Assembly (NCBI GenBank): GCA_021234155.1
Contig: JAJEKV010000011.1
Coordinates: forward strand, 23,490,101 to 23,554,100
Direction: 5' to 3'
Source of the DNA: Isoetes taiwanensis
Taxonomy: Eukaryota; Streptophyta; Lycopodiopsida; Isoetales; Isoetaceae
Length of the DNA stretch: 64,000 nt
The notes under the pieces were generated by a model. The model had not been told where the DNA came from, did not search any database, and was given only the letters and a program-made list of their open reading frames with translations. The translations under genes and the position numbers were made by a program. How positions within the stretch are numbered: the first letter of the stretch is position 1; each line of letters begins with the position of its first letter. Of this stretch, positions 14,788-51,294 are shown piece by piece.

Positions 14788-14817
<30 letters not shown>

Positions 14818-26900: not shown

Positions 26901-27005
26901 ATTTGGCGATGAGATATTCAGCCGGGATAGCGGAATGAGTGCAATGGTTATAGCATTGGCTAGGGTAAAACAATTTCTTGAAAAGAATGGGGGCGGCAAA
27001 AGGCT

Positions 27006-31090: not shown

Positions 31091-31535
31091 TTGGCTTAGT
31101 GTAAATCATGTATGTGCTGAACATGATATCTAGGCCGAAAAAACTTTCCTTCCCCTCTTGCCTGCACAGTTCTGCAGGTAATTTCTTCAAGAACCTTCTA
31201 ATTCGGTCTTGATCAGGTTTCGGAAACATCTTAAGAAAAGCTTGCATGCTTAGTGAAGGCAAACCAGTCACAGGACACGGTTTCACGTCAGGACCAGCTC
31301 CAGCCATGAAGCTATGAAGGATGCCACCATATGCATCAGTAAACCTGTTACACTCTGCCATAATGTCTACGCTCAGGCAAAAATTATTATATACAGTGGT
31401 TGCATCCACTGGCTCCTCTAGCTCCTCCTCGAACTCTTCAGGATGCTTCTGACGAAAATCCCGTTCTTTCTCCACTATTTTGTCATACCATACGCTAAAC
31501 AGCTCCCATGCCTTATCTGACCCGCTATTTGCCAT
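31091..31535 (-). pseudogene. Y (set B), N-terminal 148 codons
   Basis: Starts MANSGSDKAWELFSVWYDKI and continues with DATTVYNNFCLSVDIMAE, LPSLSMQAFLKMFPKPDQ and IMFSTYMIYTKP. It is clearly homologous to the first part of set A Y (same spacing, over half the residues alike by eye). It is cut in mid-codon by the inversion breakpoint; the rest is at 38,101-39,152. Confidence 0.85.
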
Positions 31536-31639
31536 TCTCGTGGAGCAGCACCTCGATTTATGACAGTTAGAATGTGAGCGCCTTTGTAGCGGCTTGATTT
31601 GCAAGAGAGACTGACAACGTGGCAACGATGCGAAAATAA

Positions 31640-31975
31640 CACTTCCTTAATTTATGCTATGCACAAATTCGCACCGTGGCTACGGTGCGAAAACAAGACT
31701 TCGATAATTTATTGTATTTACAATTTTGCACCGTGGCTACGGTGCGAAAATACCCCTTCCATTTTTTATTCTATGCACATTTTCGCACCGTGGCTACGGT
31801 GCGAAAACAACCCTTCAATATCTTATTGTATGTATAATTTCGCACCGTGGCTACGGTGCGAAAATACCCCTTTCATTTTTTATGCTATGCACATTTTCGC
31901 ACCGTGGCTACGGTGCGAAAATGGCCCTTCCATATTTTATGAGAGCCACACCGTAAGTACGGTGTGAAAACACAT
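31640..31975. repeat. Hairpin array 3, six palindromes at about 57 bp spacing
   Basis: Copies at about 31,668, 31,722, 31,781, 31,838, 31,894 and 31,945. Five have the arms CGCACCGT-GGCT-ACGGTGCG. The last is CACACCGT-AAG-TACGGTGTG, with matching changes in both arms. The spacers (for example CCCTTCCATTTTTTATTCTA) are also similar, so the array grew by duplication of a 55-60 bp unit. It lies 126 bp beyond the stop of X. Confidence 0.95.
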
Positions 31976-32096
31976 CCACAATCAGAGGTGTACATAATTT
32001 CGCAACATGGATACTTTAAGTCTTATATCCCAATGAAAGCAAATGTTTGCAATTAATATACAATAGATCTCCAATTAACAATCACTTATATTTATA

Positions 32097-33300
32097 TTAG
32101 ATAGATTCATATACAGATATGACTTTGGGTGGCATGCATGACCCCAATTTATAGCATTCTTCTCTGCGCTTTCCCACCTTCTGGCCATCTAATGGAAGAA
32201 ATTTAAGTTTGTCTCAAACTCTAATTGCCGCCGAACATCGAATAGAGACCACTCGCTCTCCGCTCTCAGACTTTTGAACAGCTGATTATCCTTATGAATG
32301 TTCAAGTCTATGACAACGGAATGAGTGCCATCATTGTCATCTTGTTCGACAGGAATCCAGACGTACTTTCTTCCTTCACGGACATTTCACCATCTCCTAT
32401 ACTTAAAAGTGACATACAGAGTTTGCTTCCGAATGCAATATCTGAACCGAACCACGTCTCGACTTATCCTGCATTCAGTACATTCAGCTCCATCGTGAAG
32501 TCGAGCACTCCAACCTTCAAGAAATACACTATCTAAAAAACTATCCACCGACTGTTGAACTGTAAACATCTTCAAGGTCTTCTTTACATTGTCGACGCTC
32601 TTGAATATGGCAATGAACAGATCAATTCCTAAATTTATCTTCACATGCCCGCAGACTCCTCCCTTCTCCTTCAATGTCGTGAACATTTCCTGCGACAACT
32701 TACTCCGTGCTAATACGATAGAAGTGGCATCCAGAGGCCTGCAGTATAAATCGGACAGGCTGGGCAATGGAAGCTCAGTTAGCTTGGATCTTCGTGGAGA
32801 GTATTCATACCTCCAGAACCATATACCCCTTTCTCTGAGCTGTACTGGTGTGCTACCTTCGAACAACAAGCAGTCCATATCTTGGCGAAAGCAATGGAAT
32901 ACACTGCTTATCGAGTGTGAAGAGACAGTGTTCTCCACATCAGATATACACAAACCTGAGAGAATAGGAATGAACTGGATAAGTAACTGAACTAATTTGA
33001 ATATGGATTGCATAGAATTACATACTCACAATTTGCTTCTAACCGTGGGAAAGTTCGTCGCTTGCTTATTTTTTCTTTTGCCATATCTGTTGGAGTGTAT
33101 ACATGTCTTACTTGTACAAATATCTCTTTGCCTGATCGAAATCCGACCACCAAAGCCTTCCAATATGTAGAAACATCATTTCTCCTGCATCTTTTGACTT
33201 GTCATTCACCTCGCATTGCAGGTTGGAGTGTAACAAAACTCCCGGTCGACACCACGAAGCTTTCAAACTCATTTCCGACTGTGATAGAGCTTATAGCCAT
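32097..33300 (-). pseudogene. X (set B), two-exon gene with stops
   Basis: Exon 1 33,300-33,030 (MAISSITVGNEFESF ... WKALVVGF ... VRHVYTPTDM), a 74 bp intron (32,956-33,029), and exon 2 down to 32,097 (QLRERGIWFWRYEY, EKGGVCGHVKIN, RYCIRKQTLYVTFKYRRW, VEQDDNDGTHS, KVGKRREE). Lesions: TGA in exon 1 where set A has CGG/AGA-type Arg context, TGA after YRRW where set A continues with Arg (both fit CGA-to-TGA), and a one-base shift near 32,190. Family unknown. It is the first gene inside the proposed left terminal repeat. Confidence 0.75.
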
Positions 33301-33689
33301 CTAGTCACAGAATTCAAATCAGAATGTGGAGCGAAATCGAAATGCTAGGAAAGGCTACGCGATTTTACCTTGATCGAAGTTTTTCTGTGGTCGAAATTCC
33401 CTTTAGCGCAGGTCGAAGCAGTTCCCGAGTGAACCGAAGCTCCCTTAGCGCGGGCAATCGATCTTCGCGCAAACTCTGTTGTGGAAAGCACCTGAGCGGG
33501 AATTGAGGGCAGGAGCTAACGGTTATAATTGCCATGTGTGTAATCTGACACCCGAAGCTAGAGGCACGGATAATACCGAAGCTACGTGCAGTTGACACCT
33601 GGAAAGGCGAAACCAAGGCTCGGTAAAAAAGTTCTGTACAAGCTCGGCTCCCCATTGGCCGCGAGCTTTTTGACGTGGCATCGAGTAAG

Positions 33690-33721
33690 GGCCCTTATTT
33701 GACCTCAAAAAAACTCTAATG
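33690..33721. repeat. 32 bp terminal repeat, set B left end (TIR-B)
   Basis: Identical over 32 bp to 51,263-51,294 (GGCCCTTATTTGACC then TCAAAAAAACTCTAATG). Both now point the same way, but this copy lies within the inverted segment, so before the inversion the two faced each other. It lies about 390 bp upstream of the start of X, and a kinase-like coding sequence ends at its outer edge. Confidence 0.75.
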
Positions 33722-35354
33722 GTTGGAGAATCCAATCTGATTCCAATTGTGGCCTCATGCATGGAATTGGAGAGCAATGAAAGCTGCTTCGCATAGTGTC
33801 AAGTAGCTGAGCCAGATTAAATTTCCTTGTTTTGTCTTTTATTGGCGACTCAACGCAATGCTTCAAATAGTCGCACATTGTCTGATGCTTTCTTTGTTGT
33901 TCCAAACTTCCTATTGACTGCATGTAGGAATGCTTACTAGCGAAATCAGCCAAGTAATAGACAATGTATGCTGCCCCGTGCAAATCAAAATCAATTCTCG
34001 CGGCTACTGTTTTTGAGCCACTACCAAAATAAAGGTCATCGTGCATATATGGATGCCTGGCCCTTTCCATTTCAATTCTTCTTTTACCTTCACCATCCAA
34101 ACCTTTATAATACCATCGCTTTACTTCCACTGTTTCGCCTATCAATCTAGATTCACCCCAATCACAAATACCTATATATACAGCATGAGGATCAATACAT
34201 CTTTTCTCCTTTGCATATTCAAAATGGAGTAGTATATTGCCTGGATGTAAATCCATATGCAAATATTTTTCTTGGTGAAGCTTTTGTAGACCGCTGCAGA
34301 ATGACATTACTAAGTCTCCAACCCTAGAGGCAACAAACAATTCTTTCTTTCTGTGTTCTTCAAGGCATATCAAGTTTGTTTCCACTCTAGCTACGACTCC
34401 TAACTTTCTAAATGCAAACTCTGCAAAAGCATTGCATCCATGATTTGTGAAAAAAGTTGCTGACGAACCTCCATTCCAAAAAGGGGAAATCAACCCCTGT
34501 CTTTCTAGGCCGGTTGTGCTACCAATACAGCGTATTATGCATCCATGTCTAACTTGCATTCCAGACTCCCTCGTGTTTTTCAACATAGCTTCTACTAACT
34601 TATTGGGGTTTGTACCTGGCTGAAAAGTATCACTTTGGAATTTTATGCAATAAGGTTCATCCTTAATAAAACTAGACCCTAAAATATTGCATCTATGCAC
34701 TGTTCCATATGAACCAGAACCAATTCGTTGTCTATTTATTATTTGTGATGAATCTACTTTGACAAACCAAATTGTTTTAGTATCTGCTCTTCTACGGGCT
34801 TCCCAGTCTCTATCTGTTTCACCAGGCCGTTTGGCTCTTATGGTTTGTGCTAACAGTTTCTTAATAACATGAGGGGGCTGATGAACTTCTTTCTTTAACT
34901 TTCTGTTCCTCCATGCTGCATTCCATGTGATGGCTTTTTCTTTCAATTCTGGCCTTAAGCGATGACTATTTAAATTTGCAACTTCCGTGATCATATTTCC
35001 AGTAGTGCGTCTAATATTACCTACTATCCATGTATACCTTTTTTCCTCACTCTTTTCAGGCTCTAGAGCTATCATTTGAGGCTTGAAAGCCCTCTAAGTA
35101 AATTTTACCAGCTTTGTATAGTAATCTAGCCATCCTTCCTCATTGTTTGTAATCAATTCCAAATCCTGAGCCGAAACATTGCATAGCCGATTACACAACC
35201 AGTTCATGAATTCTGGCCTCAAAGTAGACCATGCTTGTTGCATTCTACTTCTTTTTCTGCGCGGTGATGCTGAGGAAGATGACTCAGCTTCCATCTTTGT
35301 AAGCTCTGTTTGAGTTGGTTGCAAGCTGGCTTCTACTTTCTCTGTCGGAGTCAT
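33722..35354 (-). pseudogene. Protein kinase-like gene, one stop, truncated at its 3' end
   Basis: Reads leftward from MTPTEKVEASLQ. The N-terminal part has a basic stretch (RRKRSRMQQAW). A TAG at 35,094 is in frame with the next part, so the two pieces are one gene. Kinase features: Gly loop IGSGSYGTVHRC, the Lys strand CIKF, catalytic loop HMDLHPGN (Asp and Asn kept, Met for Arg), CDWGES in place of DFG, and DLHGAAYIVYYLAD for the DxW helix. Catalysis is plausible but the loops are unusual. The frame runs through DWILQP into the terminal repeat and stops, so the true C-terminus is probably lost. About 540 residues. Substrate unknown. Confidence 0.8.
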
Positions 35355-36902
35355 ACTACTTATTTTAAAGGATTGTCTAGCTAGTTAGCAAAATGCGACT
35401 CCACGACAATACGCAACTAACAATGTTAACACCTATGAGCCAAGCGAAGATAAAACTTTTAATTTAATGCTTAATACAGGAGCGTAAATCAACAATTTTA
35501 AGCTATTGTGCTAACGCCCTAAGATTTTATTTCGTTATTGATAAATTTTAATTGGTTGGTATGTATCTATAAGGCTAAGGATGGGCAAACTGACCGGGGA
35601 GCGTAAATGAACTCATTCTAATTAAAACAAACCGTTAATTTTAAGCTAATGTGCTAAGGCCCTAAGATTTTATTTTGTTATTGATAAATTTTAATTGGTT
35701 GGTATGTACGTATCTATAAGGTTAAGGATGGGCAAACTGATCGAATGTTTGCTAAAACATACGCCACTTCCTATATTGTTGTCGGATTTTTATCAACACC
35801 ACCATTAGGAACTAGGATATGAATTAGTAAAACATTCTTACAACCTTCGATAATAGTACAACGCACACTTTTCGACACCGCGTGGCCAAGGCCAACAGCG
35901 ACATCAAGTAAGGGCTATACTCGTCAACGAAGGCTTAAAAGTAACCTTTTGTACTAACCTTTTGTTTGCTAGGCTGCTAAAATCTATATGGAATAGGGTA
36001 TGCTTCTATATGGTAATCAGTAATGTGAACATGAGATATCAGTTTGGCAAATGGAATTAATATATGTAGAATAGAATAGTTTTTTTGCAATTACTTAAAG
36101 ACCATAAGCAAAATTCAATTAATTAAACTGTTTGAGAATGTCAATTAATGTAAATAGAATAGAGGTCTAGTTAGATATTTTGGTGTTATATTAGTCTACA
36201 GATATCGTATGGAAGAGCAGACTCTCATTGTTTAATCTGAATAGAAATCATATATATGCTAGAATTCTATGGAAAAGTAGTCTTATATTTATCATTAATT
36301 AATGAGGTCTATATACAATAATGTATGGTTCTATATGATGATATATAGTGTAGAGAGATATCGCGTTAGCATGTTCTTAATCTAATTTGAATGATATATA
36401 GATAAGAAATGAAGTGAGTGTGTAGATTTATCTAAGTGCAAACCAAATGATATTTTGAGACAGCAAGTGCAAAGACAAAATTAATTTGGAGTAGCTTCCT
36501 TTTTTTTTATGAAGTAATGTGCATAGATGTCATTTGAAATACCAAGGTAGAGTGCTACAATCTATATGCAATGGGTTGTGGTCTTATACAATGATGTGTG
36601 ATATTAAGATGGAAAAAATAATAGACAAATAGGCAATATCAATACATTGACAACATAGATATGAGCAAATAGAAGCAATGTGCATGGACATCATTTAGGC
36701 ATATATATCAATATGGTAGAGAATGCAAATAAGAAGAGAAAAAGGATCAATCAATAGTAACAAAGGTAACAAACATATTAGATCTAGTTTTTCGACTCAC
36801 CTGGGGCGTCCTCTTTTTCTTGGTATCACTTGTCGGTTGAGTTCGTTAGTCCTCATGCTTAATACAGTTAAATAATCTCGTTAACCTGTTTTTTTTTTTC
36901 CC
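35355..36902. other. AT-rich non-coding block
   Basis: No gene. It contains a tandem repeat of about 143 bp (35,490-35,745; TAAGCTATTGTGCTAACGCC and TAAGCTAATGTGCTAAGGCC start the two units, each with TTTTAATTGGTTGGTATGTA). The part at about 36,050-36,300 is similar, in reverse, to 51,400-51,590, for example TTCTAGCATATA...TTTCTATTCA and GGTCTTTAAGTAATTG. Confidence 0.6.
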
Positions 36903-38100
36903 AACGTATAATTACTGTGTTGATTTAATAGCGAGAAAACATTCCTATGGACGATAGCAAATCTAAGGGGTCAACTCACTGATTATGATGAACGCTTCAA
37001 ATCGGTGCTCATGTAGTCTATGGAAAGTCTGTCAGGCGACTGTAATATTTCATATGATACTATTCAGCAAATATTCATTGAAAAGGAGGTAAGTATCAAG
37101 TAATGAATTTAATACATACTGCAATTCATACCTGAAATGATTAATTCGAACGTTCAAAGTTGTAGCTATCTCAGATATTAATGTGCCGACTTTGTTGAAG
37201 ACCAACCCTTTTATAGAAAAGGAGATAAAAGACTATCCTCTGCGGTTGCTGTGCTGAATATGAACGGTTCTTACGCAATTTAGTGATAAGATAGAAGCTT
37301 CGTGCAACTTTTTTGCCGAGTAAAACATGTTACGGTCTTTTGTTTTGTTCAAAATTAGAAGGTCGACCCATTTGAACTTATCCATTTGTGTTATCTGCAT
37401 ATTGCTGTCAAGCTTATATGGTGTGTCGAATGGGCCCAATTCTAGAGATGTTAGTAGATTGGTCTCAAGGCTTTAGCCAGTAATAGACTGTATTTTTGTT
37501 ATTCGAATAGTTTAAATGCCACTTTCAAGAGATGTTTTGTATTATTGCATTACAGGTCAGTATCATTTAACAAATTGATAGTTAACAATTCTCATCATGT
37601 TCGAAGCAACTGTATTGATTACATAAACGCCAAGCAGAAACATAAATACATGGCATAAGGCATAAGAGCCTTTAAATTGCATGGCCAGACCAGAAAATGC
37701 CAAGCAATTCTTTGTACATATTCTTATCTAGAAAACATACAAACATAGCAGGCAGCTTCATACCTGGTGATTTCGGCATGCCTGCCTCAGATTGGCCTCT
37801 ATATCCATGATTTTTAAACACTTTTTCAGTTTTTTTAATGTCCCGATGATTTCTTCCAGTCGAACAAATGCATAGTGGAACCCTGATGCAATGTTGTCTT
37901 GGTGCACAAAATATTGTTCGGACATCTCGTTTAGATCCACACAGCCAACTTCGTTGGCAAGTTGATCGGCTCTTATGCGTGCAACCTGGGTGGGCGTGTG
38001 GGGGCATCCAAAAGGAGGCCTTTCAAAGTCTGGCAGTTCTATCCTTCGCTTCTGTTGCAACTATGATCTATTTCCGGCATCTGTAGACAAATATGAGAAG
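36903..38100. repeat. 6.5 kb unit, copy 2, right part, inverted
   Basis: Reverse complement of copy 1 from about 18,901 to 20,110. It ends at the same base as copy 1 (AACGTATAATTACTG at 36,903). Beyond it, a poly-T run (36,889-36,900) and unrelated sequence follow. Confidence 0.92.
37233..38100 (-). pseudogene. Q copy 2, exons 2 and 3 (separated by inversion)
   Basis: Exon 2 frame 38,060-37,758 (LQQKRRIELPDFERPPFGC ... TLKKLKKCLKIMDIEA) and the third frame 37,439-37,233 (GPFDTPYKLDSNMQ...). Both are open. Relative to copy 1, six bases are missing (GF of NEVGFLCVD, in frame). The start of the gene is at 31,038. Confidence 0.75.
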
Positions 38101-39152
38101 TTTCAAGTGCACAGGTCGCTCAAACAGAACGCCCCACCTCACTAGTAGAGGAGCCGATAGATCATGAGGAAGAGAAGCTCGTACTGGAAAATGAGGAGAT
38201 CGAGGTTGTGGAAGAGGAGGTCTCCGAGAAAAAATTGTCTACTTGGGGGCTATCAGAAGCATATCCCATCCATGTAGGTGGGAAACCATACTTGTTGCTG
38301 CCGGACATATCTGAAGTGACAGGGTTGAGAGAAGACGAGATATTGGGCCAGATATATGCGCATGTTGTAGGGCTGGGAGGACTTATAGACTTTGAGACTG
38401 ATGTCCCCAGACAAATGATGGAGGCTGTGACTTATGATGGATCCTCAATACCTCCAGAGGATGCATTTGAAATTGCCATGCAGCAAGCTGAAGCAGGGTA
38501 TGAAGTAGTGAAAGATATCAAATTTGAAGCTGCTAGCTCTTCACATTGCTTCTGTATTCATAGAACGTGAGCTGTCGAAGTCCTCTTTCAAAATAACAAA
38601 CCCAGCTGTTGTCGAACGGGACAAAAGAGAGGTATTTATCTGGTTTCATTTTTTATTTCTTCTTGAATCTGATGTTTCTTTTATGCAGGAGTTATTTATT
38701 GATGACTTCTGTGCAAGGCATCAGAGAGTCACCCTAGGTCGGGACGCCAGTATTGCACATTATATGGGCTACCTTCACAAGGGGGAAATTATTGTGTTTC
38801 ACAATAAATATAGTCCATCTGGAGTACAGGAGGTCCTCAAGCTTAAGGCTCTGTCATTAGCTGGCAACCACGTGCCCCTAGCCTCAAACTATGATCGAGT
38901 GGTAGCAGTAGATAGGGCTATCGCAATGTATGTCTTTGGGGGCTTCAAAATGTACTCTGTCCTTGCAAATAAAAGCAGCTCTAGGCTTGGGTGGAGCGGA
39001 CAAGGAAATATCAAGCTTGTCCCACGTACCTGTATGACCCCGACATATTGTATCTGTTAGATGCAATTGGGGCTGGAGTAAAAGAAGAGGACTTAGAAGA
39101 ATTTGATTCGGGTACTCCAGGCCCTGATGCCAAGAAAAGGAAATGTACTTAA
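38101..39152 (+). pseudogene. Y (set B), C-terminal part, two exons
   Basis: Continues in frame from the reversed 31,091 joint: an acidic stretch (HEEEKLVLENEEIEVVEEE), WGLSEAYPIHVGGKPYLLL, TGLREDEILGQIYAHVVGL and TYDGSSIPPEDAF. A 57 bp intron (38,632-38,688) lies at the same place as in set A. The last exon has ELFIDDFCARHQRVTLGRD, SIAHYMGYLHKGEIIVFHN and a basic end (PDAKKRKCT, a likely nuclear signal). Frame changes occur near 38,560 and 38,985. Hairpins begin 181 bp after the stop. Function unknown. Confidence 0.8.
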
Positions 39153-39330
39153 AAAACTTTTGTATTAATATAATGTCTTTTCTATAAATTGTCTTTTCTA
39201 TAATGTATCAATTGTTTTCATATGACGAAATTGCTTTTGTATGAATGTTCATTTATGATATTCATTAATTGTTTGAATTCAATGTCAGCAATAAATCCTT
39301 GTTAGATGTATATGTTAGGTATTCTTTAAT

Positions 39331-39462
39331 GGTGGCTACGGTGCGAAAATGGGCTGTCGGCAGTTTTTGGACTGCCCTATTTTGCACCGTGGCTACGGTG
39401 CGAAAACGGGCTATCGGCAATTTTTGGACTGCCCGATTTCGCACCGTGGGTACTGTAAACAT
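39331..39462. repeat. Hairpin cluster 4, after Y (set B)
   Basis: Three copies near 39,333 (half), 39,380-39,407 (complete, TTTTGCACCGTGGCTACGG...) and 39,436-39,460 (right arm decayed). The 55-56 bp spacing and the shared spacer (GGGCTGTCGGCAGTTTTTGG) again show a repeated unit. Confidence 0.9.
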
Positions 39463-39540
39463 TTTTTAGTCTAGGGGTTTATGGGATCAGTACAGACAAT
39501 ATTGCTTATTTGAATTTCTTTCCCTTGCTAAAATCCGCTC

Positions 39541-40320
39541 ATGTCCATGGAAGGCGCTAGCTCTGAAATCCCACAAAATGAGGCTTGACCAGCGCCGTAT
39601 CGTTGAGGAGGTCATTACTAGCGGCCACCGAGACTGCTATTACCATCCACGAGACCGAGACGCTTATTCCGATCACAAGCCGCCAGATGGGCGTAGATGA
39701 GAATGTCCTTCCAGAAGGGTTCGGGCAAAGCCTCGGAAATGTCGTCCACACTATTAATAATAGTGTGGACGAATATTTCCAAAACCCGAACGTGATTCCT
39801 ACTCGGGTCTCCTTGCTGAGCGCCGGTAATGTTGTTGGGGAAGGAGTTTTCCGTGAGGTTGACCGCATGCGCCACAATATTCCGGTTCCGGATGATCAGA
39901 TTGTGGTATCGGTGGACACAACCTTCTGATCCAACGGCGATCGCCCTTCCCCACTCGAGCGAGACGATAGAGGAAGCCGTCGGGTCATACGTCGTGTGGC
40001 CCAGGTTGATGACATCCATGTCCGGCATGGAGGCACGACCATTCCAGTTCTTGATAAATGAGATCGATTACATGATTAGACCACAGGGGGGGCCTTCTAC
40101 ACACGGCCAGGTGGTGTGGCAGGTTGACCAGGGCCATGGTGCCCAGTGGCTATTGAATCAGGTAACCCCCTCGTCTATGACGTTGGCACCACCACTGCAT
40201 TCCGAAATATTTGGCAGTGGTGAGGGGGAGCAAGGGCAGCACCAGATTGTGGAAGTGCAGCATGACCAGCATCAGCTGGTCCAGCATGATCAGCAGCATC
40301 AGTCGGACCAGCATCAGCTG
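39541..40320 (+). other. 5' region of the H3-like gene, structure unresolved
   Basis: Open stretches on both strands. On + there are frames at 39,585-39,929 (LPEGFGQSLGNVVHTINNSVDEYF) and 39,829-40,326 (ARPFQFLINEIDYMIRPQGG). The second shares the frame of the H3-like domain. A short first exon could begin at 39,541 (MSMEGASSEIPQNEA). I cannot decide the exons, and a reverse-strand frame at 40,028-39,618 is equally long. Confidence 0.35.
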
Positions 40321-41190
40321 GTCTAGCATGATCAGCAGGACCAGCATGCTCAGCAGGATCATGTTGATCACGGGAAGGCCAGTTCTAGTGGAATAGGTAC
40401 TAGGAAGCCCATTCCCCGGCGCAAGCGGAAATCCATGCCGAAGAAATCTGACCCGGCAAAGCCTCCTAAGCTTGTTCCTAGTTGGAGACAAGTTGAGAGA
40501 GATGCAGCCAAGGAGACAGATAAGCTTGGGAATAAGCGGAAGCCTAAGGAAGGGGAGCCTAGTGTTAGATATGGTGGCCCTGAGAAGATAAAGGGTGCTC
40601 CTCCTGGCACTCAGGCTTTGAGGGAGATTAGGTACTGGCAGGCACGCACCCAGCCTCTGATTCCCAAGCTTGCCTTCGCTAGAATGGTCAGGTACGAGAT
40701 GCAGGAAATTATTGAGAGGAGGAAGGAATCAAGGAGGAAGAGGAGGGACAGAGCACCAGACTTCGTCCCGATGGTGGAGGAGGAGGTGAATAGAATCCAA
40801 GCAGAGGCCTTGGACATACTGCAAGAGGCAGCAGAGGCTCATCTAAGGGCAAAATCACATTAGGGCACTTGCCCAACTCTGGAATTTGATGACATGGCAT
40901 GAAATGGGCAAGTGCCCAGACGTACCTCCGAGCATTGTATCCCACTAGGGCACCTGCCCAACTGCCACGTAGTCCAAACTACGTTGCTGCTGTTCTGAGA
41001 GACATCGAAGAAGATGCCGTCGAGAAGAATTTGCGCTCCAGCAGATCGTCTCACAAATCAGCATAGGCCCGGAGGAATTCTCATGTGAAATTTCTGCACA
41101 TTCTTGTGAATCGAAGGTGAGCACTCTCTATTCTTATTTATTTTGTATGTGCTAGGGTTTGTAAAACTTGATGGGCTTCCAGATACAACC

Positions 41191-42114
41191 ATGGATTCCG
41201 GAATTGGAGAAGGATCATCCACCTCCGTTAATGCCCTTGTAGAACGACGAAGAAAGTTATTGAAGGTACTCCTAGTGCTGACACAATTACTCCGCGTTCT
41301 TATCGATGACACAGTAAGCCAGTACATCAAAGTGAGTAATTGGTTAAGATCAATTTCAGTTGCATTTTCTGAATTTGCAAGCACCCTCAAACGAAAGGAT
41401 ACTGTTAGAATGCTATGGCAATGTGACAGAGGTCCAGGTTTGGATTTGATCTTGCTAAATACCTACTCTGCTCATGAATTTAAGAGGAGGCTACGTATGT
41501 CTAAGCAGAACTTTTATTACTTGTGCCAGGAACTAGGGCCTGCAATGAAAAAAGAGGACACCAGATTCAGGCCAGGAACTCCAGTAGAGAAAAGAATTAT
41601 GATTGCTTTGACTAGACTAGCCACTGGAGACACTTTGATAGGTATAGCTGATTCATATCGTGTTGGATATGCAACAGTACAAATGGCAGTGATGGACTTT
41701 GTTCATTCTGTGAATGCTAGATTAAAGAATCTATACATTTGCTGGCCATCTCTTGAACGTATGAAGAACTTGGCAACTGAATTTGAGAGCATACACGGGA
41801 TACCCTCTTCAGTGTTGTGCCCTCATTTATCTTTGTTCTCGCCATACAACTGCCTTTGCCGAGATTTTCAGGACATACCTTTGTCGATGACGTTCTCTTG
41901 CTTCCAACTCGAAGATGTGAGATGTATTCATTGCTATGGTATGATAAACAAGCAATCCAGTCTTCTAGTCATACAGCTTGTATGTCTTCTCTATATCTTC
42001 CATTGCATGCCATGCACAGAGCAGTCCTTTAGGAAGGTATACTATGTCACCTGCTGCAATCTCAATGCAACCTGGTTCTCCATCTGGATAAACTCTTGTT
42101 CTACCATGCAATAA
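41191..42114 (+). pseudogene. PIF/Harbinger transposase, N-terminal part only
   Basis: The block from about 41,400 to 41,810 is typical of HARBI1-like transposases: the HEFKRRLRMSKQNFYYLCQ type helix, RFRPGTPVEKRIMIALTRLATG, the helix-turn-helix-like SYRVGYATVQMAV and FESIHGIP. In intact enzymes the catalytic GAIDGTH follows FESIHGIP; here unrelated sequence follows, so the DDE core is missing. The frame runs on to 42,114 through a captured gene fragment read in antisense. The element is non-autonomous now. Confidence 0.82.
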
Positions 42115-42158
42115 GTAAAGAATTTCATTCTGCTCGTACTTCCATGAAAACTAGATTG
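41965..42158 (-). pseudogene. Captured cupin_3 (DUF861) domain fragment
   Basis: About 62 codons on the reverse strand: WKYEQNEILYLLHGRTRVYP, then IEIAAGDIVYLPKGLLCAWH, then EKTYKLYD and a stop. This is the second half of a small plant cupin of the DUF861 kind (pattern Y-LLEGKV-V-PDG, GDLV-FPKG--C-W-V---V-KHY). The frame is open and ends naturally. It lies inside the Harbinger element, antisense to the transposase, between it and the Myb/SANT gene, so it is most likely host sequence picked up by the transposon. Confidence 0.75.
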
Positions 42159-42686
42159 ACTTCATCAAAAATAAGGAAAGAAAGAAAGATTATTCAGTGT
42201 CAAATGCATCAGGGTAAGTAAAGCCTGATTTTCTAAATGCAAACACCAAATGATTTTTCCATGATTTGAGCACCAAATGGTATGTGTAAACAAGTGGAAA
42301 GAGCTAATTGCCATTCATGCTGAGTAATCTTAGCAAATATTGAAGACCTACCTTAAATCTCCAGTAATCAGAAACAAACTAGAAACTTCCAGCTCTGTTC
42401 AGATCGCTCTCTTCATTACAGTCCAAATTGAGGTGCATAAATATAACAATAAAGTATTATGTCTGACACTATCTTCTAGTGCAATGATTATTTAACTTCT
42501 AGCTTGTACACCAAAGAATCCACAAACCTCTCCCAGAGTTTAATAAGCTAGGGAATCACCCTGAAATTAATATCAACTTCATGCTACAAATCAAGATTAT
42601 TTGCTGCTATCAATTGAATAAGAAATAATATCAGGAGTGCAGATTACAATGAAAACAAAACAATGAATTAATCAAGTTCAATGACA

Positions 42687-43331
42687 TCAAATTTTGTCAA
42701 TGAGACGGTCAATGGAGGCACCAATGCCCTTCAGAACCAACAACTTTTCTGCTTCTGCTTGCTTCAAAGTCTCATTCATTTGTTTTCCCTGTTCCAACAA
42801 GTCTTCCATTATATGTAGCGCCGTTTCTTTTTTGCTCCTTTTGGAGGAAGAAGAATTTGGAGTTTCCTTTTTGACTTGCACGTTCTCTCGTGTAACATCT
42901 TGAAGAGTTTCTTGTGCAGTGTCTCCTATCTCCGATTCATTGTCTTCCTCGATTGCACCAGCATGAACGTGTTTCCTGACATTGGCTCTTTCACCAAAAT
43001 AGCTATCCATTAAACTGTAATATGGACAGCTTTCTCTTCTATCATTTCCGGAAACACTATTCCAGGTGACATCTGCCTGAAACTGTCTCAACACATACTG
43101 AAATTTTTTCCTGCAGGCTTTGGCATCTTTCTTAAAATCAGGACACGTAGCGATAACCTTTGCATGCACCTGTCCCCACAAATTCGTACCCTGCTTTGGT
43201 CTCTCAGAAAATTGTTTATTCATTTCACATCGGGCATGTAATAGAGCAACAACATGCTTCTCTTGCCATGGTTTACCTGCATCGTCATCATCTTCACTCG
43301 ATTCTATTTCCACAAGAGGTTTTAGGGACAA
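42687..43331 (-). CDS. Myb/SANT-like partner protein of the PIF/Harbinger element
   Basis: A 214-residue protein. An acidic N-terminus (SSEDDDDAGKPW) is followed by a trihelix/Myb-SANT-like domain of about residues 18-110: KHVVALLHARCEMNKQF, NLWGQVHAKV and CRKKFQYVLRQF. A basic linker (SSSSKRSKKE) and a C-terminal amphipathic helix (LLVLKGIGASIDRLIDKI) follow. Harbinger elements encode such a protein to bring the transposase to the nucleus and the element ends. Its opposite orientation to the transposase is usual. The frame is intact from start to stop. Confidence 0.82.
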   Translation of the reverse strand: MSLKPLVEIESSEDDDDAGKPWQEKHVVALLHARCEMNKQFSERPKQGTNLWGQVHAKVIATCPDFKKDAKACRKKFQYVLRQFQADVTWNSVSGNDRRESCPYYSLMDSYFGERANVRKHVHAGAIEEDNESEIGDTAQETLQDVTRENVQVKKETPNSSSSKRSKKETALHIMEDLLEQGKQMNETLKQAEAEKLLVLKGIGASIDRLIDKI

Positions 43332-44453
43332 ATGGGCCTCTTGGTTTTCTTCTTCGCGGCTTCTTTTTTTTGGCTCAATTTTTCTACTCTTTCTAGTCTT
43401 ACCTCGCAGGAGGAAATCAGTAGAAGGTGGAGGCGCGGATGAATGTGCAACAATAGGAGGCCGAGAAAAAATCTGAAAGTGGGCTGCGGATCCGTGGAGG
43501 TAGGAGAGAAAAGTATGCAGCAGTAGCAGCAGAGTGCATCATAGGAGGAGCAGGATATGTGGCAACACCTGTTCTAGTAGCTGTGGCCTCAGCATTATTG
43601 GAAGTGCTTTGGTGAGGATTGAAGCAAGGGATAGGAGTCCGTCCGCAATGAATTGATGCATGGAATTTGCAAATGGTGGTCGGCTAGGGCCGGGAAGTGG
43701 CAATCAATGCGTGGTACTGGGTGGCTTGTATTTGAGAAAACTGATCATCCTGAGTGCTAGGAACAACATCATACTCACTGAAATCCATCTGGACAATGAA
43801 CACAAAAGAATGCAAGACAATGACTTCATGATTCGTAATTCACCATGGAAAAATGAAAACTGACAAACCATACATACCTGTGAGAGAAATGTAGATGCTG
43901 AAAATCCAGAGACGCTGAAGAAGAGAAGCACGAATTGGAGCGAATTGGAGCGGTGAAGAATTCTTGCCTCACAGTTCCCGCCAAGGCCACCACCCGGGGA
44001 CTGCTCCAGATCAGCAGTCCGTTGATGATATGGCATAGTGCCCAAGCTTTGGGCACCCGCTACCGTGCGACCAAAAAAATTCTGCGTGCCCAACTCAAAG
44101 CCCCGTTTTGGGCACGTTGGTGTGATAGATGCATGTGCCCAATCTGTCCACGTGTAAATTTTCAAGAGAGGGAAGATTTTAAAGATGGCCGGGCACCTGG
44201 TGTGATTTGGGCCTAATTAGCCTCTTTGAGGACAGTGCCCGCTGTTGTGTGCACAGAGGACGTGTTACTGTGCAGGACAGGGACTATGCCTTAGCTAGAT
44301 ACTTCCGTGGATGCCTCCCTTAGCATCCTTTTGCAACACTTTTTTGGTTGTTAATATATGAGTGTTTTAATATTTTTCGTTATGAGTGTTTTATATTTAT
44401 CTGTAATTATTTGCTATTCTATTTATTGCGGCTGTGCATTTATCTACTAGTGT

Positions 44454-44592
44454 TGACCGTGGCCACAGTGCGAAAATGACTATTCCACATTCTGTGGGAA
44501 GGTCTATTTCGCACCGTCACCACGGTGCGAAAAATAGTAGTTCCAAAGTTTTTGGAGGGCGCAATTTCGCACCGTGACTACGGTGCGAAACA
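44454..44592. repeat. Hairpin cluster 5, between the H3-like gene and Z'
   Basis: Three copies at about 44,454-44,477, 44,508-44,535 and 44,563-44,590, spaced 55 bp. They lie between two convergent 3' ends: 131 bp after the H3-like stop and 184 bp after the Z' stop. The spacer CTATTCCACATTCTGTGGGA also occurs in reverse near 8320-8345 in set A. Confidence 0.9.
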
Positions 44593-44773
44593 GACTGTTC
44601 CACATGTACAGTAAGAGCTTTTCAAGAGCTTTTCAACTTGAAAATGTGTGGTAAATAGATGGATCACATGTATCACTTATGGTTACATACTTATAACTAG
44701 CGAATGTTTGAAACATTCTAGTAACAGAATTTAAAACTCATATAAGAGGCATAGCATACATGAATGTAGAAGT

Positions 44774-45058
44774 TCATTCACAATCGGGATCATCATGAGC
44801 AGGTAGTTGAGTGATGCGATTAATCTCATAGACGCGACGCTCTGGAACCCTCCAAAGGTGGATAACAACACGATAAAACCCGTTGGAAGAACGATTTCGA
44901 CCCTCTGCTACTCCTTCCAGCCAGGGATCAAGGGGGATACCCCTCTGAGAACATCTATAAAGATCATTATATGTCATAGTGCAAGTAATGGAGTCCATAT
45001 CTTCGGGACGAGGAGGCAAGGTAGACCCCCTGTAATAAGAATAACCAGGCCGAGACAT
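44774..45058 (-). CDS. Z' (set B), unknown small protein
   Basis: 94 residues, almost identical to Z at 7771-8055 (MSRPGYSYYRGSTLPPRPED ... YEINRITQLP). The homology covers the 3' flank and hairpins and the presumed upstream intron (45,090-45,210). Family unknown. It is intact, and both copies keep their frame. Orientation relative to X and Y is the same as in set A. Confidence 0.7.
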   Translation of the reverse strand: MSRPGYSYYRGSTLPPRPEDMDSITCTMTYNDLYRCSQRGIPLDPWLEGVAEGRNRSSNGFYRVVIHLWRVPERRVYEINRITQLPAHDDPDCE

Positions 45059-45395
45059 AGCAATTAATGGATGCCTTCTGCATTGAGTGGAGCCGTACTT
45101 TATCGAACAAAATTATTGACATGCACTGTAGCAGCATTATTGGTTATACATACGAGCATAATGTACAAAATACACATGTAAATATAATGTACGTATATAG
45201 CATATATACCTGGTTTCTCTTTAAATAGGCATCTATGCCTTCATTGTCTTTGTCTGCTTCTTGTTTGCATGCTCCTTGCCTCCCTGTCCGCTTCTTGTTG
45301 CTCTTTGCCTTACTGTCTGCTCCTTTCTTGCATGCTCCTTGCCTGCCTGCCTGCTCCACTAGTTGTTCCTTGTCTGCTCCGCTAGTTTCTTGCAA

Positions 45396-45963
45396 ATGGT
45401 AACTTTGCAAGAACATCCTCGCTGGGCTGATCCGGAATACCTGCAAGCATGCGGCAGAGTTAATACGTGCACTTTTGATGATTTTTTTAGCAACTTTTGG
45501 GAGCATCGATGGCGTCACGGTCCAACCACTGAGCTTGCAAGGCAGCTGATCAACTTCATTATCGATCGCTATACTCGTCATCTCCCTCCACTGGAGGAGA
45601 AATTCGAGTCATGCAAGGTTCACTCTAAGTGCTTTGGGACTTCTTGAACCCCCCTCAGAGTTAGAAGATAGGCTAGAACAGTTGAAGGACATGCTTTTCC
45701 ATGGTTTCATGGCCTACTCTCTGAATCAGTATGTGCCTCTGGTCATTCCTACTAATGAGAAGAATAGGATTTATATCCTCATTGAACTTTACAACTTCCA
45801 TTACAAATCTTTTGTGGATATTGGTAAGCTCCTATTCCGTTCCCTTGACTTCAACATCCTGTGGTTACTGTCTAAATTCCCCACCTGGGATACAATTCCT
45901 TGGGATACACGTGACCTATGGCTACATAGCACACATCACATAATACGTACATATCACAGGTGA
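45396..45963 (+). pseudogene. W, unknown protein, one frameshift
   Basis: Begins MVTLQEHPRWADPEYLQACG and continues with LINFIIDRYTRHLPPLEEKF. A one-base shift near 45,615 moves to the frame ARFTLSALGLLEPPSELEDR ... FMAYSLNQYVPLVI ... WLLSKFPTWDTIPWDTRDLW. Every block has its counterpart in W', 1 kb downstream, so W is an older tandem duplicate. No family recognised. Upstream lies a pyrimidine-rich stretch with CTTGC words similar to that before W'. Confidence 0.65.
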
Positions 45964-46165
45964 AGATACTCCATTGGAATATGTGTATAAACTGGTATAA
46001 AGATTTTCATAGAAATTAAGTATATAAGCAAGTGATTTCCGTGTAATTAAGTAACATCCTCATATTATCATGTATTATCTTGGCAATCTTACACTTTTAG
46101 TGTAATTGAATGATTTCTTCTACCATTTTCCTTGTATTTTCTCATGTGAATGTTTTATTTGTGGT

Positions 46166-46368
46166 CATATTCGCAAGAGTACCCGCGGTCTGAAATCGCC
46201 TCGATTACAAATTATTGAAGGGCCTATTTCAAGACCGTGGCTACAAAGCGATCTTAATACGTGGATCCGGTTTAGTTCTGAGGCCCATCTTTCGCGATCA
46301 GAGCCACGGTGCGAAATCGACTCAGTTACAAATTATTGAAGGGCCTATTTCGCCACCACCAAAGGGTA
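46166..46368. repeat. Hairpin cluster 6 (degenerate), after W
   Basis: Weak copies: near 46,166-46,200, 46,228-46,254 and 46,293-46,318 (right arm GCCACGGTGCGAAATCG intact), with the spacer GTTACAAATTATTGAAGGGC that also separates the good hairpins of cluster 7. The cluster starts about 200 bp after the W stop. Confidence 0.65.
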
Positions 46369-46469
46369 TAATACTTCAGCATTATTGGTATTATTCTTCA
46401 ACTTTCTTGGTATTATACTTCAACAGTATTAGTATTATACTTCAACATTATTGGATTCATAGCTATAAA

Positions 46470-46925
46470 TTCTTTCACCTTGCTTTCACTTCTCACCTTT
46501 GTTCCATGTTTTCACCTTGCTTTCACTTCTCGTGTTCTCACCTTGCTTTCACTTCTCACCTTGTGTTCCGTGTTCTTTGCTAATTGATCTTGATCCTTGC
46601 TTCTTGCTCCTTCATCTTCGTGCTACTTCATGCTACTTGGTCTTGTTCCTTGCTCTTGATCTTGCTACTTGATCTTGTTGCTTGCTTCCTTGCTCCATGA
46701 TCTTCCTTGTTCCTTGCTTCTTGCTACTTCATCTTGATCCTTGTTCCTTGCTACTTGATCTTCCTGCTCCTTGCTACTTGGTCTTCCTTCTTCCTTGATC
46801 TTCTTGCTCCTTGATCTTCCTTGTTCCTTGCTTCTTGCTACTTGATCTTGATCCTTGTTCCTTGCTACTTGGTCTTCTTCCTTGCTCTGCTCCTTGTTCC
46901 TTGCTCCGTCGGTGATCCTTGCTTG
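46470..46925. repeat. CTTG-rich minisatellite before W'
   Basis: Irregular repeats of TTGCTCCTTGATCTTGCTACT-type words, all pyrimidine-rich on the + strand, running up to the W' start. Upstream are repeats of CACCTTGCTTTCACTTCT. A shorter relative lies before W (45,240-45,390). It may act as promoter or leader sequence, but this is inference. Confidence 0.7.
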
Positions 46926-46934
46926 CTTTTGCAA

Positions 46935-47531
46935 ATGATTGGACCCAATCCTCCCTGGGCTACTCCAGAAGGCCTGCAAGCATGCCCCAGGCATTCTGTG
47001 CGGCCTGAAACTGATGAGCTATTTGACCATTTCTTGGAGTGGAGGTTGCACCACAGTCCCACCAAGGAGTTTGCAATGGAGTTGATCAACTTCATTCTGG
47101 AGCGATTTGATTGTGGTCATGAGCCACTGATGGAAATTAATCCATCTGAATGTTATAGGAGACTTGCAATGAGGGGAATTCTTGAACCCCCTCCTTATCT
47201 GGACGAGATGCTACAACAGTTCAGGCCTCTTCTTCGTGCTGGTTATTTAGCACACTCTCTGGATCAATACGTATCAGAGTTCATTCATGAAATTTGTAAG
47301 GGACAGATGTATGGCCTTATTAGGACGTACTACAACGAGTACAACAACTTTGTGGAGTTGGGTCCGCTCTTCTTCCGTGAGTATCATCATGTGGAATTAC
47401 TTTTTCTAATGACTAGGTACCCCATATGGTGGGAAGAATCAGGCTGGGATACGCGTGAGCTCTGGTTTCCTAACCCAGCTGCGTGGGTTACCCCTCGCAG
47501 GGGAAGGGAAAGGGGAAGGGGAAGGGGTTAG
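46935..47531 (+). CDS. W', unknown protein, intact
   Basis: 198 residues. The ATG at 46,935 was chosen because W starts at the equivalent place (CAA-ATG, followed by ...WATPEGLQAC). Blocks: LFDHFLEWRLHHSPTKEFAM, LINFILERFDCGHEP, RGILEPPPYLDEML, YLAHSLDQYV, FFREYHHVELLFLMTRYPIW and WDTRELWFPNPAAW. The tail is GRERGRGRG, a small Gly/Arg nucleic-acid-binding-like end. Family unknown. Compared with W, which is frameshifted, conservation here suggests that this is the working copy. Confidence 0.7.
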   Translation: MIGPNPPWATPEGLQACPRHSVRPETDELFDHFLEWRLHHSPTKEFAMELINFILERFDCGHEPLMEINPSECYRRLAMRGILEPPPYLDEMLQQFRPLLRAGYLAHSLDQYVSEFIHEICKGQMYGLIRTYYNEYNNFVELGPLFFREYHHVELLFLMTRYPIWWEESGWDTRELWFPNPAAWVTPRRGRERGRGRG

Positions 47532-47693
47532 GAACCTAGGGGAAGGTTACTAGGGACATACTGCCGTGGTCTCTAGTAACCTTTGCTATCTATCATAAAT
47601 AATTCATATGATACCGTGTTAATATGTTCTCTAAATATTCTCTAATATGTTAATATGTTCTCTAATATGTTAATATTCTCTAGTTACAGGCCC

Positions 47694-48140
47694 ATATTTC
47701 GCACCGTAGCCACGGTGCAAAATTGACTCAGGTACAAATTATTGAAGGGCCTATTTCGCACCGTAGCCACGGTGCGAAGTCGACTCAGTTACAAATTATT
47801 GAAGGGCCTCGCACCGTAGCCACGGTGCGAAATTGACTGAGTTACAAATTATTGAAGGGCCTATTTCGCACCGTGGCTACAGTGCGAAGTACGTGGATCC
47901 AGTTTAGTTACAGGCCCATATTTTTGCGACCGCCGCCGGTCGCGAAAATCGACTCAGTTACAAATTATTGAAGGGCCTATTTCGCACCGTAGCCACGGTG
48001 CAAAATCGACTCAGTTACAAATTATTGAATGGGCCTATTTCGCACCGTGGCTACGGTGCGAAATACGTGGATCCAGTTTAGTTACAGGCCCATATTTTGC
48101 ACCGTGTCCACGATGCGCAATACATGCATCCAATTTACTT
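47694..48140. repeat. Hairpin array 7, about eight palindromes
   Basis: Copies roughly every 55-65 bp (about 47,695, 47,753, 47,808, 47,864, 47,931, 47,982, 48,040, 48,094), separated by GACTCAGTTACAAATTATTG or CGTGGATCCAGTTTAGTTAC. Arms alternate between AGCC and GGCT loops. The copy at 47,931-47,953 reads GCGACCG-CCGC-CGGTCGC, changed in both arms so that the stem is kept. The array lies between the convergent ends of W' (163 bp) and UV (94 bp). Confidence 0.95.
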
Positions 48141-48213
48141 ACAATACAGCATTTCGCACACTGAGCACTATCGAACTGATAAATAAACCAACTCTTTTAC
48201 AGTAGAGACGTTA

Positions 48214-50834
48214 TCAAGAGCTCTCAATACGGACATAACCTTTGCCTTGCCTACATCTCATTGATCTCCACTCCCTTGATCGCTCAACAGCTGCGGACTT
48301 GTACCAAGCTTCCCTCTTTTTTTCCCGCTGCGTTTTTTGTCTAAACAACTTAGCAAGTGTTGATTCACTCTGGTTCCGTGATTTCTTCACCCACTTGCAC
48401 ACGATCCTTTTGTAAAACCATTGACACATCTGCTGCAAGGAATTCCCAACTGAACCTCTGTGTTGAGTGAAACGGAAGAATGCATTCTTTGCTTGCTTAT
48501 GGGACTTCTCCATTCCCCGTGTATTCCAAATTCCCAGGCTTCCATATTCCTTGACAAACCACACGCCATGTGCGAACAGAATATGGACATAGTGAGTCAA
48601 ATTGGCCTCACCCCATGCCGTCAAGAAAGACTTAGTGAAGTTTGTGACTGCCTCCTGGAATTTGGCAACATCATTTTCCTGCACTACCTTTTTCTGCATT
48701 TCCTTTACCAGTACAGAGAAATCCTGCCATGCCTTGATTTTCTTCAGGCGTGATCTGCCACGATCATTTCGATCATCCTCAGCTGCAATAAGATCCTTGT
48801 AAGCTTCCCAAACACCAGATAAGTTCTCTTTCGTGGGAGGCAAAAACCTCTTAGCCTTTGGATCACCCATACTGGGTTTCAGGGGAACCTTGCCGGATAC
48901 CTTTGGATCTTGAAGTATTTTGTAGTGCCCACCATGAAGTCCCACATTAGATAACACCTTTTCAACTTCATGCATGCAGCTTCCCTAGAGCTTTGGGGTG
49001 ATTTATTCCAAGCAAACAGGATACTCATGTAAACCATCTTGTCTATGATTCTCAAGAAAGCATGAAGGGTGCATATGTGTACTCTTTTTAACGGAATTGA
49101 CAGAATTGGCATCAAGGTTGTGTCCTTCTCTTCTCTATTTGGTGGCTCATCCTGGACACAGTCTAATGTACTCTTGTCTAACCCAGCTGAATCTCTTCTC
49201 GCATAGAGACAGTAGGGACAAGCATGAGTAGTCTTACCAGCACTATGCTTCATTCTGTACATGCATTTTATTGTCTTCAAATCTGCAGCAAGATGCCATT
49301 CAACCTCGTACTCACCATATCCAGGAACTGCAAGTTTTTCTCCGATTCCGTGAGAGGCAATCATTGTGGGGATGGGTGTTTGATCAAAAACCCATTTCAG
49401 TATACTGTGATTTTCCTCTGGTACCTGAAATAAACCAACCCACCAAATGTGATCTTCAGACTGGACGGAAAACTTACCATCTAGATTTGACTCTTCATTC
49501 CCTGTATTCAAAGCTCTATTCATTAGACTCAGTGAAACCCTCTCGTACTTCTCGCCTTTCACCAATTCCATTTCATCCAGCTTCAAAACAATTCTTAGTT
49601 TGCCAGCGCACTCTTCTACCTTCATATCATAAAATCGAACCAAAAGCTGAAGCATTCTACTTAAGTCTATCCAGCAATTGTTATTTTCATTAAGGCAGAA
49701 AGTATCACCAAACTTCGATTTCTTCTTGCCCGGTATAAGATGGCAATGTATCTAAATTGACACTACTGGTCAGCTGATACATATCACCAAGAAGCTCTTG
49801 CACTTGTCTGTTTCTCGATGACCTACAAGTACTCACACTAGTCATCCTTGGTAGTAGAATAGTTTTGGTAATGCCTTGTTGTTTAAGGCCATCCTGCAAG
49901 CATCTGAACAAAGCAATGTAAGCTTGCCTACTTATTCCGACATTGTCACACAGTTCTTGCACTAATTCTGAGGTTTGACCGTTCCCCAACTCCTGCAGCA
50001 GTTGGTCACTTTTCTAAGTTGAATGCTACCAGGAAGCTTTAACATTTCTAATACATCATCTTTAGTAACCAATTTCTTTAATAAACGGGCAATATTGGCA
50101 AGTTTTCTCTTATTTTCTTCTGCCAGATTTGGATCAACAAGCTTTTTAATAGCCACGACCCTTTTTTTTTAGCCTCCACCCCCAGGGGCTAATATATTTA
50201 TGGGCTTCAGGTTTCTTGCCCTCTCCCTGATCCCCAGTGGAGTTCTTTTCAAGCGTTTGACTCGCTTGTGAAGGGAATCATTTTCTTGCGCAACCCTCTT
50301 CATTCCTTGCTGCAGCGATTTCATCTCCGTCACCAATTTCTGATTTTCTACCTCCAATTCATTGAGCTTGCGGCATTGTTGAGACAGAAAGTAGTTCGCC
50401 TGTTGGAGCTGATTAACATCTGATAAAACTTCGCAATTGAATCCATACAAGTGGTTATACATGGCACGCAAATGTGGATCAGTATTACCATTAACCAAAT
50501 TATTACAGTAACCTAGTAACCCTTGCTGTCCCTTACAAGCAAATTCAATAAGACCGGATGCATAGTGGAAGTTTGGATGGGCTCGAGTGAAAGGATCACA
50601 AGGATACAATTGGCCTTTAGCCCAGAGGTCTATATTCATGGCTCCAGAAGCTCGCAATGCATTTTCATCTATTGGTTGCTTCCAAGTGAACTTATTCCCT
50701 ATAAAGGCGCATCCTTTTGGCACTTGCACTCTAAATTGACCCTCGGAATTAGTTTGATCCTGAAACAGAAGTATTAGAACCAAGAACACTCAAAGGAATG
50801 CAATGACAACTCGGAAACCAAATACCTTTGCCAT
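48214..50834 (-). pseudogene. UV, long transposase-like gene, several frame breaks
   Basis: Exon 1 is MAK (50,834-50,826), then a 66 bp intron (50,760-50,825). Next comes an N-terminal region with a coiled coil (VNQLQQANYFLSQQCRKLNE ... HKRVKRLKRTPLG). A TAA at 50,169 is in frame with what follows (RVVAIKKLVDPN), so it probably joined on. The C-terminal two thirds has IVLKLDEMEL, a Cys pair CPYCLYARRD, KRVHICTLHAFLRIIDKM and HYVHILFAHGVWF, then GIWNTRGMEKSHKQAK and RFTQHRG. An early acidic residue, a zinc-like pair and a late G-EK helix suggest an RNase H-fold transposase, with KDZ-like families one possibility. I do not recognise the exact family. Frame changes lie near 49,990, 49,715 and 48,970. 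It is the last gene before the right terminal repeat, reads inward, and is the best candidate for the element's own transposase. Confidence 0.55.
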
Positions 50835-51262
50835 TGACGTTGCAAAAGACCGAGAACCGGAGCGGAGCTTAGAACTAGGAAGATTCTTGCCAACAAACAG
50901 AGCGTTCGCTCTATTTGCTGGCAAGAATCCGCCATAATTCGAATTCAAACAATGCTTGGGCGCGATGGCAAGATCGTTGGCACTCGATGGCGCGATGGCA
51001 AGCTCGATGGCGCGAGAGCAAGCTCGATAGCAAGCTCGATGGCGCTGAAGCTCGATGGCGCTGAAGCTCGGTGGGAAAATGAAAATCCTAGATGTAATCA
51101 TCAAATATTCAGGTCGTTAGGAAATAATGATTGCAAAGTTAGGTTCGGAAGTTAGGTTCGGAGGTTAGGTAGTTAGGTTAGGGGAGAGTGAAAGTTAGGT
51201 ATGGAGGGGGGGAAGCTAGGTTCGGGATCCTACGTGGCGACCGTCCTAATATATTCTTACAA

Positions 51263-51294
51263 GGCCCTTATTTGACCTCAAAAAAACTCTAATG
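51263..51294. repeat. 32 bp terminal repeat, set B right end (TIR-C)
   Basis: Identical to 33,690-33,721. It lies about 430 bp upstream of the UV start. Sequence outside it is AT-rich and unrelated to UV. No direct duplication was found when its outer flank (TTGACGAC) is compared with that of TIR-B (outer flank GTTGGAGA as read on the + strand). Confidence 0.75.

Follow-up and report, generated by a model that had tools for sequence, protein, structure and literature searches.

INTRODUCTION

DNA transposons of the CMCT (CACTA/Mirage/Chapaev/Transib) group have ends that begin with CAC, and the target duplications of CACTA and Chapaev elements lie in the range of 2–5 bp. According to the sections of the survey cited here, CMCT transposases have a D-D-E arrangement with C(2)C and H(3–4)H motifs between the second D and the E; the group takes in EnSpm/CACTA, Mirage, Chapaev and Transib, and also Plavaka, ESTA (with TA as its duplication) and Lanisha, and some members carry extra genes (PMC12730594). 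For Transib, the cited text gives a 5-bp duplication and 7-bp ends that resemble recombination signal sequences (PMC4411706). Here, we describe a large element bounded by terminal inverted repeats (TIRs) in a 64,000-nt stretch of the Isoetes taiwanensis genome, referred to as the window (contig JAJEKV010000011.1, or C919, positions 23490101–23554100; the source assembly comprises 1.658 Gb in 1110 contigs). Its genes are designated X, Y, H3-like, Z, W, W' and UV, the last being the candidate transposase gene. The element shares with CMCT transposons its TIRs, the D-D-E and C(2)C...H(3–4)H motifs and the presence of extra genes, whereas it differs in its ends (CATTAG rather than CAC), in showing no duplication rather than one of 2–5 bp, and in the lack of a significant Pfam match for UV.

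Among transposases, RAG1 is the closest solved structure to UV by sequence, and the landmark residues are colinear. Unlike RAG1/Transib, the element has neither a heptamer-like CAC end nor a 5-bp duplication, the N-terminus of UV has a coiled-coil-like stretch, and the host is plant-like; a RAG2-like gene was not noticed in the element, although none was searched for. Insertion of Spy elements follows an AAA/TTT rule, whereas the insertion flanks of 18 copies of the present element show no fixed rule of this kind. Some PHIS elements are described, in the part of the source cited, as inserting without a target duplication, and in this the present TIR transposon is like Spy/PHIS; by contrast, no PIF/Harbinger Pfam family was found in three UV pieces or five relatives (PMC10045372 for the PHIS elements). 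A captured H3 gene at high copy number has a counterpart in hAT elements of Dothideomycetes, for which the cited passages report a length of ~9.5 kb, 8-bp duplications, a hAT domain and capture of the H3 from a host transcript (PMC6710886); our element has neither the 8-bp duplication nor a hAT domain, and its H3, a diverged variant, is under purifying selection and belongs to a multi-gene element. Fungal DNA transposons with TET/JBP genes carry, in the portion of the survey cited, chromatin- or DNA-modifying cargo beside the transposase, as here (PMC12730594), whereas the present cargo comprises a histone and four unknown gene families, accompanied by palindrome arrays. As far as the literature was searched, the combination of histone cargo, no duplication and a CMCT-like enzyme is undescribed, the separate pieces being known. 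We propose that the window holds a degraded, later inverted member of a large autonomous-type DNA transposon family with UV as its transposase, a reading to which we assign a probability of ~0.85.

RESULTS

Ends and copies of the element

The left (33690–33721, annotated −) and right (51263–51294, annotated +) TIRs of the window copy, element B, are identical 32-mers on the same strand, none being expected in dinucleotide shuffles; the repeat is 32 bp long, starts with CATTAG and has matches to both ends throughout the genome. A related motif with seven mismatches at 12396–12427 (−) forms the left end of a second element, A, which is homologous to B on its inner side; the genes of the two are called sets A and B. 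An earlier note, made from the window sequence alone, had reported these motifs, taken them to bound one large mobile element and named a search for inverted motif pairs in the source genome as a test. Exact matches number 135 for the right end and 55 for the left, and pairing used all 55 left ends with the 100 right ends listed, 12 of the left ends being on contigs beyond those of the listed right ends. Among these matches, 15 left/right pairs no more than 40 kb apart face inward, against 0.07 expected, and the only other left/right pair within that distance is that of the window, which is explained by its inversion. Within the 13 pairs longer than 10 kb, a UV match is present in 11, and UV and H3 together in nine. 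Flanking sequence up to the end is common to no two of the 30 left ends fetched (the window's included), whereas on the inner side agreement with the window starts at the very first base in 28 of the 30. A TIR DNA transposon is expected to show paired inverted ends at independent sites, and the copies at unrelated sites bear out the single mobile element; a host gene cluster was rejected on the same ground. An exact-pattern search misses mutated ends; the left ends of three further copies (on contigs C941, C90 and C1038), the only ones located by a tolerant scan, all reach CATTAG.

The C941 copy is complete, lacks both rearrangements seen in the window and has the order X>, Y>, H3-like>, <Z', W>, W'>, <UV that the earlier note had deduced; its 12,797 bp replace the previous length estimate of ~12.5 kb. 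The first rearrangement, an inversion of 31091–38101, belongs to the window copy and lies outside the design of the element. A repeat that is unbroken at 17.4–20.1 kb is elsewhere split into 29927–31090 and the reverse of 36902–38101, the Y gene of set A aligns through the 31091/38102 joint as a single 757-column match, and in the C941 copy the sequence moves on from 31091 to 38133 in the space of 53 bases: a single inversion repairs both breaks, that in the repeat and that in Y. The second is a PIF/Harbinger-type transposon in the H3-like gene (40847–44213, with TAA on each side), likewise not part of the element; it contains a Myb/SANT gene and a transposase recognized by eye, the latter with no Pfam match. 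The C941 sequence runs from 40846 to 44213 without it, and the frame there reads EAHLISLFED.

A far more diverged element on contig C1039 (8,087 bp; 26 of 32 end bases matching, both ends beginning CATTAG) carries X, at 40–43% identity, and UV facing each other. Because both occur in this strongly diverged 8-kb element, X and UV are likely to be the core pair, on this one example.

Directly outside the left end of B lies a protein-kinase-like gene (33705–35384, −), the frame of which stops within the TIR. The outer kinase of the earlier note is thus real, but its frame enters the motif and ends inside it instead of stopping exactly at its edge; the 'Mutator-like' open reading frame (ORF) placed outside set A matched no Pfam family.

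Insertion without target duplication

The absence of a target duplication, which the earlier note gave as its weak point, turns out to be a property of the family. An exact duplication of 2–10 bp was found in none of 18 two-ended copies (the 15 pairs and those on C941, C90 and C1038), with offsets of up to three bases allowed for lengths of 4, 5, 6 and 8 bp, and the flanks of the C1039 element do not match each other either; in this, the family departs from what is usual for TIR transposons. When the joined flanks of the 18 copies were compared with the fetched loci and the window, uninterrupted relatives spanning the joint were found for those on C243 and C1046, neither of which shows a duplicated stretch: the joint is gap-free for C243 against locus L040, and there are gaps of 1–3 bases near it, with no duplicated stretch, for C243 against L031 and for C1046 against L011 and L047. 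The window also holds a palindromic repeat resembling a miniature inverted-repeat transposable element (51902–52257); two right ends on C179 (L008 and L026) both adjoin its sequence CCTATCCAACAGCTCTC, and one side of that site therefore has an uninterrupted relative in the window.

The candidate transposase UV

UV (48214–50834, −) is broken by frameshifts in the window copy, while its C-terminal piece gave 149 scored genome matches at 48–100% identity and an uninterrupted frame of 902 residues is present in the C1039 element (locus L080). Twelve sequences, of which two are window pieces and several are truncated, were aligned; KLDEME, ADLKT(I/V)KC, C-x-x-C, TLHA, H-x4-H and GMEKSHK are retained wherever a row extends over them. 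These landmarks follow the order of those in RAG1 at similar spacing (D-D-CxxC-LH-HxxxxH-E), and C535-P-Y-C and H771-x4-H776 lie between the second D and the E, as in the CMCT layout. Comparison with the mouse RAG1 core using hhalign gave one match, of 38 columns at 39% identity around H937–E962 (probability 62–63%, expect value 7e-5), with a score of 44 against 24.4 for the best of 60 shuffles. The proportion of nonsynonymous differences (pN) among UV relatives is 0.19–0.34 where that of synonymous differences (pS) is 0.73–0.89, and UV is kept by selection. Judged solely by its motifs and a single short profile match, UV most resembles the CMCT transposases, the profile comparison within that group having covered RAG1 alone. 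We infer that UV is the active transposase, of the DDE type and with zinc ligands laid out as in the CMCT/RAG1 group; it would work like a CMCT transposase, and we place the element in no named superfamily.

The H3-like histone

The histone recognized in the earlier note is confirmed: 40327–40863 matches PF00125 with an expect value of 1.7e-6, above the curated cut-off, the part up to α2 also matches H3 in the PDB, and the α3 piece beyond the Harbinger insertion matches H3 chains at 2.8e-6. The gene comprises the basic tail and helices through α2 (40327–40846, +) and the α3 end (44214–44323, +), which are contiguous in C941; the fold is kept from αN to α3, with a long basic insert before α2 by eye. 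There are 151 scored genome matches, many of them open. Of the 178 residues, those after 173 are reached, among the matches listed, only by the window copy and one other (to residue 175); the final five residues of the window ORF therefore come from the Harbinger element. Six of the 151 copies were fetched for estimates of dN/dS (the ratio of nonsynonymous to synonymous substitution rates), which is 0.23–0.44 in nine pairs involving the diverged C1074 or C1072 copies (the damaged C1059 copy excluded) and, for the window against two copies, 0.23 and 0.36 at dS 0.95 and 0.57. On the values between the more diverged, undamaged copies, the gene is a real, diverged H3 variant kept by purifying selection.

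The remaining genes and the palindrome arrays

X (32071–33302, −; two exons by eye, homologous to set A) is separated by a palindrome array of 57-bp period (31609–31970) from the 5' part of Y (31091–31535, −), which is cut by the inversion breakpoint; the 3' part lies at 38102–39150 (+). Arrays follow between Y and the H3-like gene (39322–39463) and between the latter and Z (44449–44591), of which the second exon, by eye, is at 44774–45058 (−) and is 3–5% diverged from its set A counterpart. W (45396–45963, +) is frameshifted; a degenerate array (46166–46320) divides it from its paralogue W' (46935–47531, +), and a further array (47696–48121) lies between W' and UV. Set A contains X (10826–12034, −) with one in-frame stop, palindromes between X and Y (10635–10760), Y (8529–10465, −) with an internal tandem duplication, palindromes between Y and Z (8291–8432) and a feature at 7390–8055 (+).

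Between sets A and B, X has pS 0.75–0.85 and pN 0.26–0.28; for X and Y together, synonymous sites are saturated (pS 0.75–0.87; pN 0.22–0.32), and both genes are strongly constrained. For Z, dN/dS is 1.72 on few changes, the sequences being too similar to judge, and W and W' are 39–47% identical with dN/dS 0.72–0.76, indicating little constraint. Histone aside, none of the element genes tried scored above the Pfam cut-off, and in PHROG the element pieces reached an expect value of 0.0038 at best. The possibility, raised by eye, that X is a BAH-like chromatin reader found no support in Pfam or PDB.

The arrays sit downstream of genes. A/B divergence changes sharply at the H3–Z array (~44455; ~8371 in set A), this array coinciding with an apparent exchange of modules between elements. 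The homology of the two Z genes extends as far as 7664 and 45211, respectively, where it stops at the splice-donor-like GTATATAT; the sequences upstream of this edge differ, which suggests that a further module boundary lies at an intron edge of Z. Units starting CATTAGAGG (once TATTAGAGG) occur in or beside the X–Y array palindromes (L021:1854 and 2087, L023:929 and L013:4460); those in L021 and L013 finish with TCTAATG after ~95 bp and are miniature relatives of the element ends. At L045:74–1453, a left end runs with hardly any intervening sequence into the 3' half of UV, with the breakpoint within the W'–UV array (window position 47975), another array-associated junction.

DISCUSSION

UV most likely pairs both ends and excises the element. 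It would then attach the element to both target strands at positions lying exactly opposite each other, a blunt step that we infer, and hence leave no target duplication. Y, the H3-like histone, Z and W would be cargo with putative functions: the histone probably packages or marks the DNA of the element, or disturbs host silencing, whereas the palindrome arrays are probably shared 3'-end or insulator signals and may be seams at which modules are swapped. On balance, we slightly favour the joint reading in which the element's own H3 variant and the conserved partner X are working parts of its life cycle and modules are exchanged at the palindromic seams. If this scheme is true, RAG1-type chemistry would occur, free of duplications, in a plant-like lineage, raising the question of how the stagger of strand transfer is set; a selected, transposon-borne histone would make the shaping or escape of host chromatin by the element testable; and annotation tools that require a target duplication would overlook such elements.

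A number of observations weigh against the transposon reading or its parts. Among the matches listed, 40 of the 55 exact left ends (the window's included) have no inward exact right end within 40 kb, and same-strand pairs also occur within that distance (two right/right and one left/left); moreover, trimmed ends are invisible to exact patterns, and the precision of the ends is partly built into the sample. The C941 copy carries frameshifts and stops. Among the loci compared, uninterrupted relatives were found for only two of the 18 joined flanks; they are ~77–83% identical, and three of the four alignments contain gaps of 1–3 bases close to the joint. The similarity of UV to RAG1 is short, 38 columns at a probability of 62–63%: in PDB searches, one UV piece matched RAG1 chains at non-significant expect values of 0.26–0.68, and the UV alignment matched RAG1 at 0.8 and 2.5, behind two unrelated chains; an ordinary search with the joined UV protein gave no RAG1 match, PF12940 matched UV at 0.016 behind another family and one of five relatives at 0.033, and the AlphaFold2 model of one UV piece was unusable (mean confidence score, pLDDT, 39). 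In the fetched C1039 stretch, only X and UV were recognized, Y, H3, Z and W being undetected at an expect value of 1e-3. The H3–Z gap of C941 contains no palindrome within three mismatches, and the palindromes were rejected as covarying hairpins, their covariation being not above that of shuffles (67/500). Finally, close H3 pairs have dN/dS 0.49–0.62, and pairs with the damaged C1059 copy 0.22–0.61.

The alternative that survives best, although we regard it as unlikely, is that the cargo genes, the H3-like one included, are passengers that do nothing for the element. It would account for their not being recognized in the 8-kb C1039 element and for the little-constrained W and W' (dN/dS 0.72–0.76), and, in the portion of the report cited, the H3 copies in the hAT elements of one fungal species are mostly damaged (PMC6710886). 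The low dN/dS of the window histone against two copies (0.23 and 0.36), the strong constraint on X and Y, and the many open frames among the 151 scored H3-like matches argue instead for function.

We hold it improbable that UV is not the mobilizer and that the enzyme, a Spy/PIF-type 0-bp transposase, a recombinase or a rolling-circle protein, is encoded elsewhere. Duplication-free insertion is described for PHIS elements, and not for CMCT elements, in the text cited (PMC10045372), and the shortness of the RAG1 similarity points the same way; yet 11 of the 13 long pairs contain a UV match, UV is kept by selection, and its catalytic and zinc residues are retained in the C1039 element, the ends of which begin CATTAG.

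Slightly less probable still is that the element is an endogenized virus or plasmid, a linear DNA with inverted ends that end joining placed in a DNA break. The large number of genes, the presence of a histone, the palindromes between genes (for which the 3'-hairpins of mimivirus provide an analogy) and the lack of a duplication would all fit, and end joining would produce trimmed ends of the kind that an exact-pattern search misses. Set against this, the terminal repeat is complete at 190 exact ends and three left ends from the tolerant scan reach CATTAG, there is intron-like sequence by eye, and the conserved end gene resembles a transposase. Apart from the histone, no gene tried passed the Pfam cut-off, and the best PHROG match was at 0.0038; two scans of viral contigs, with a UV piece and a Y piece, found no relative, and neither DNA polymerase B nor capsid was matched among the element pieces tried, not every reading frame having been scanned.

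Hardly credible, and refuted in substance by the inward pairs (15 against 0.07 expected, with one other left/right arrangement, among the matches listed) and by the complete C941 copy with the same gene order, is that the motifs are the ends of two separate insertions, or a repeat or promoter motif, around an accidental gene cluster, notwithstanding the missing duplication in the window and the 40 of 55 listed left ends with no partner, since UV and H3 both lie inside nine of the 13 pairs longer than 10 kb.

Other features of the window

Outside the transposon, 13606–24277 contains ~6.3–6.5 kb duplicated almost identically, with a Rep_fac-A_C (RPA1-like) fragment at 23950–24264. By eye, the long ORFs of 56654–60250 resemble a Helitron helicase/Rep remnant, and 1–5000 and 24400–29850 contain coding remnants of Ty3/gypsy-like and L1-like retrotransposons.

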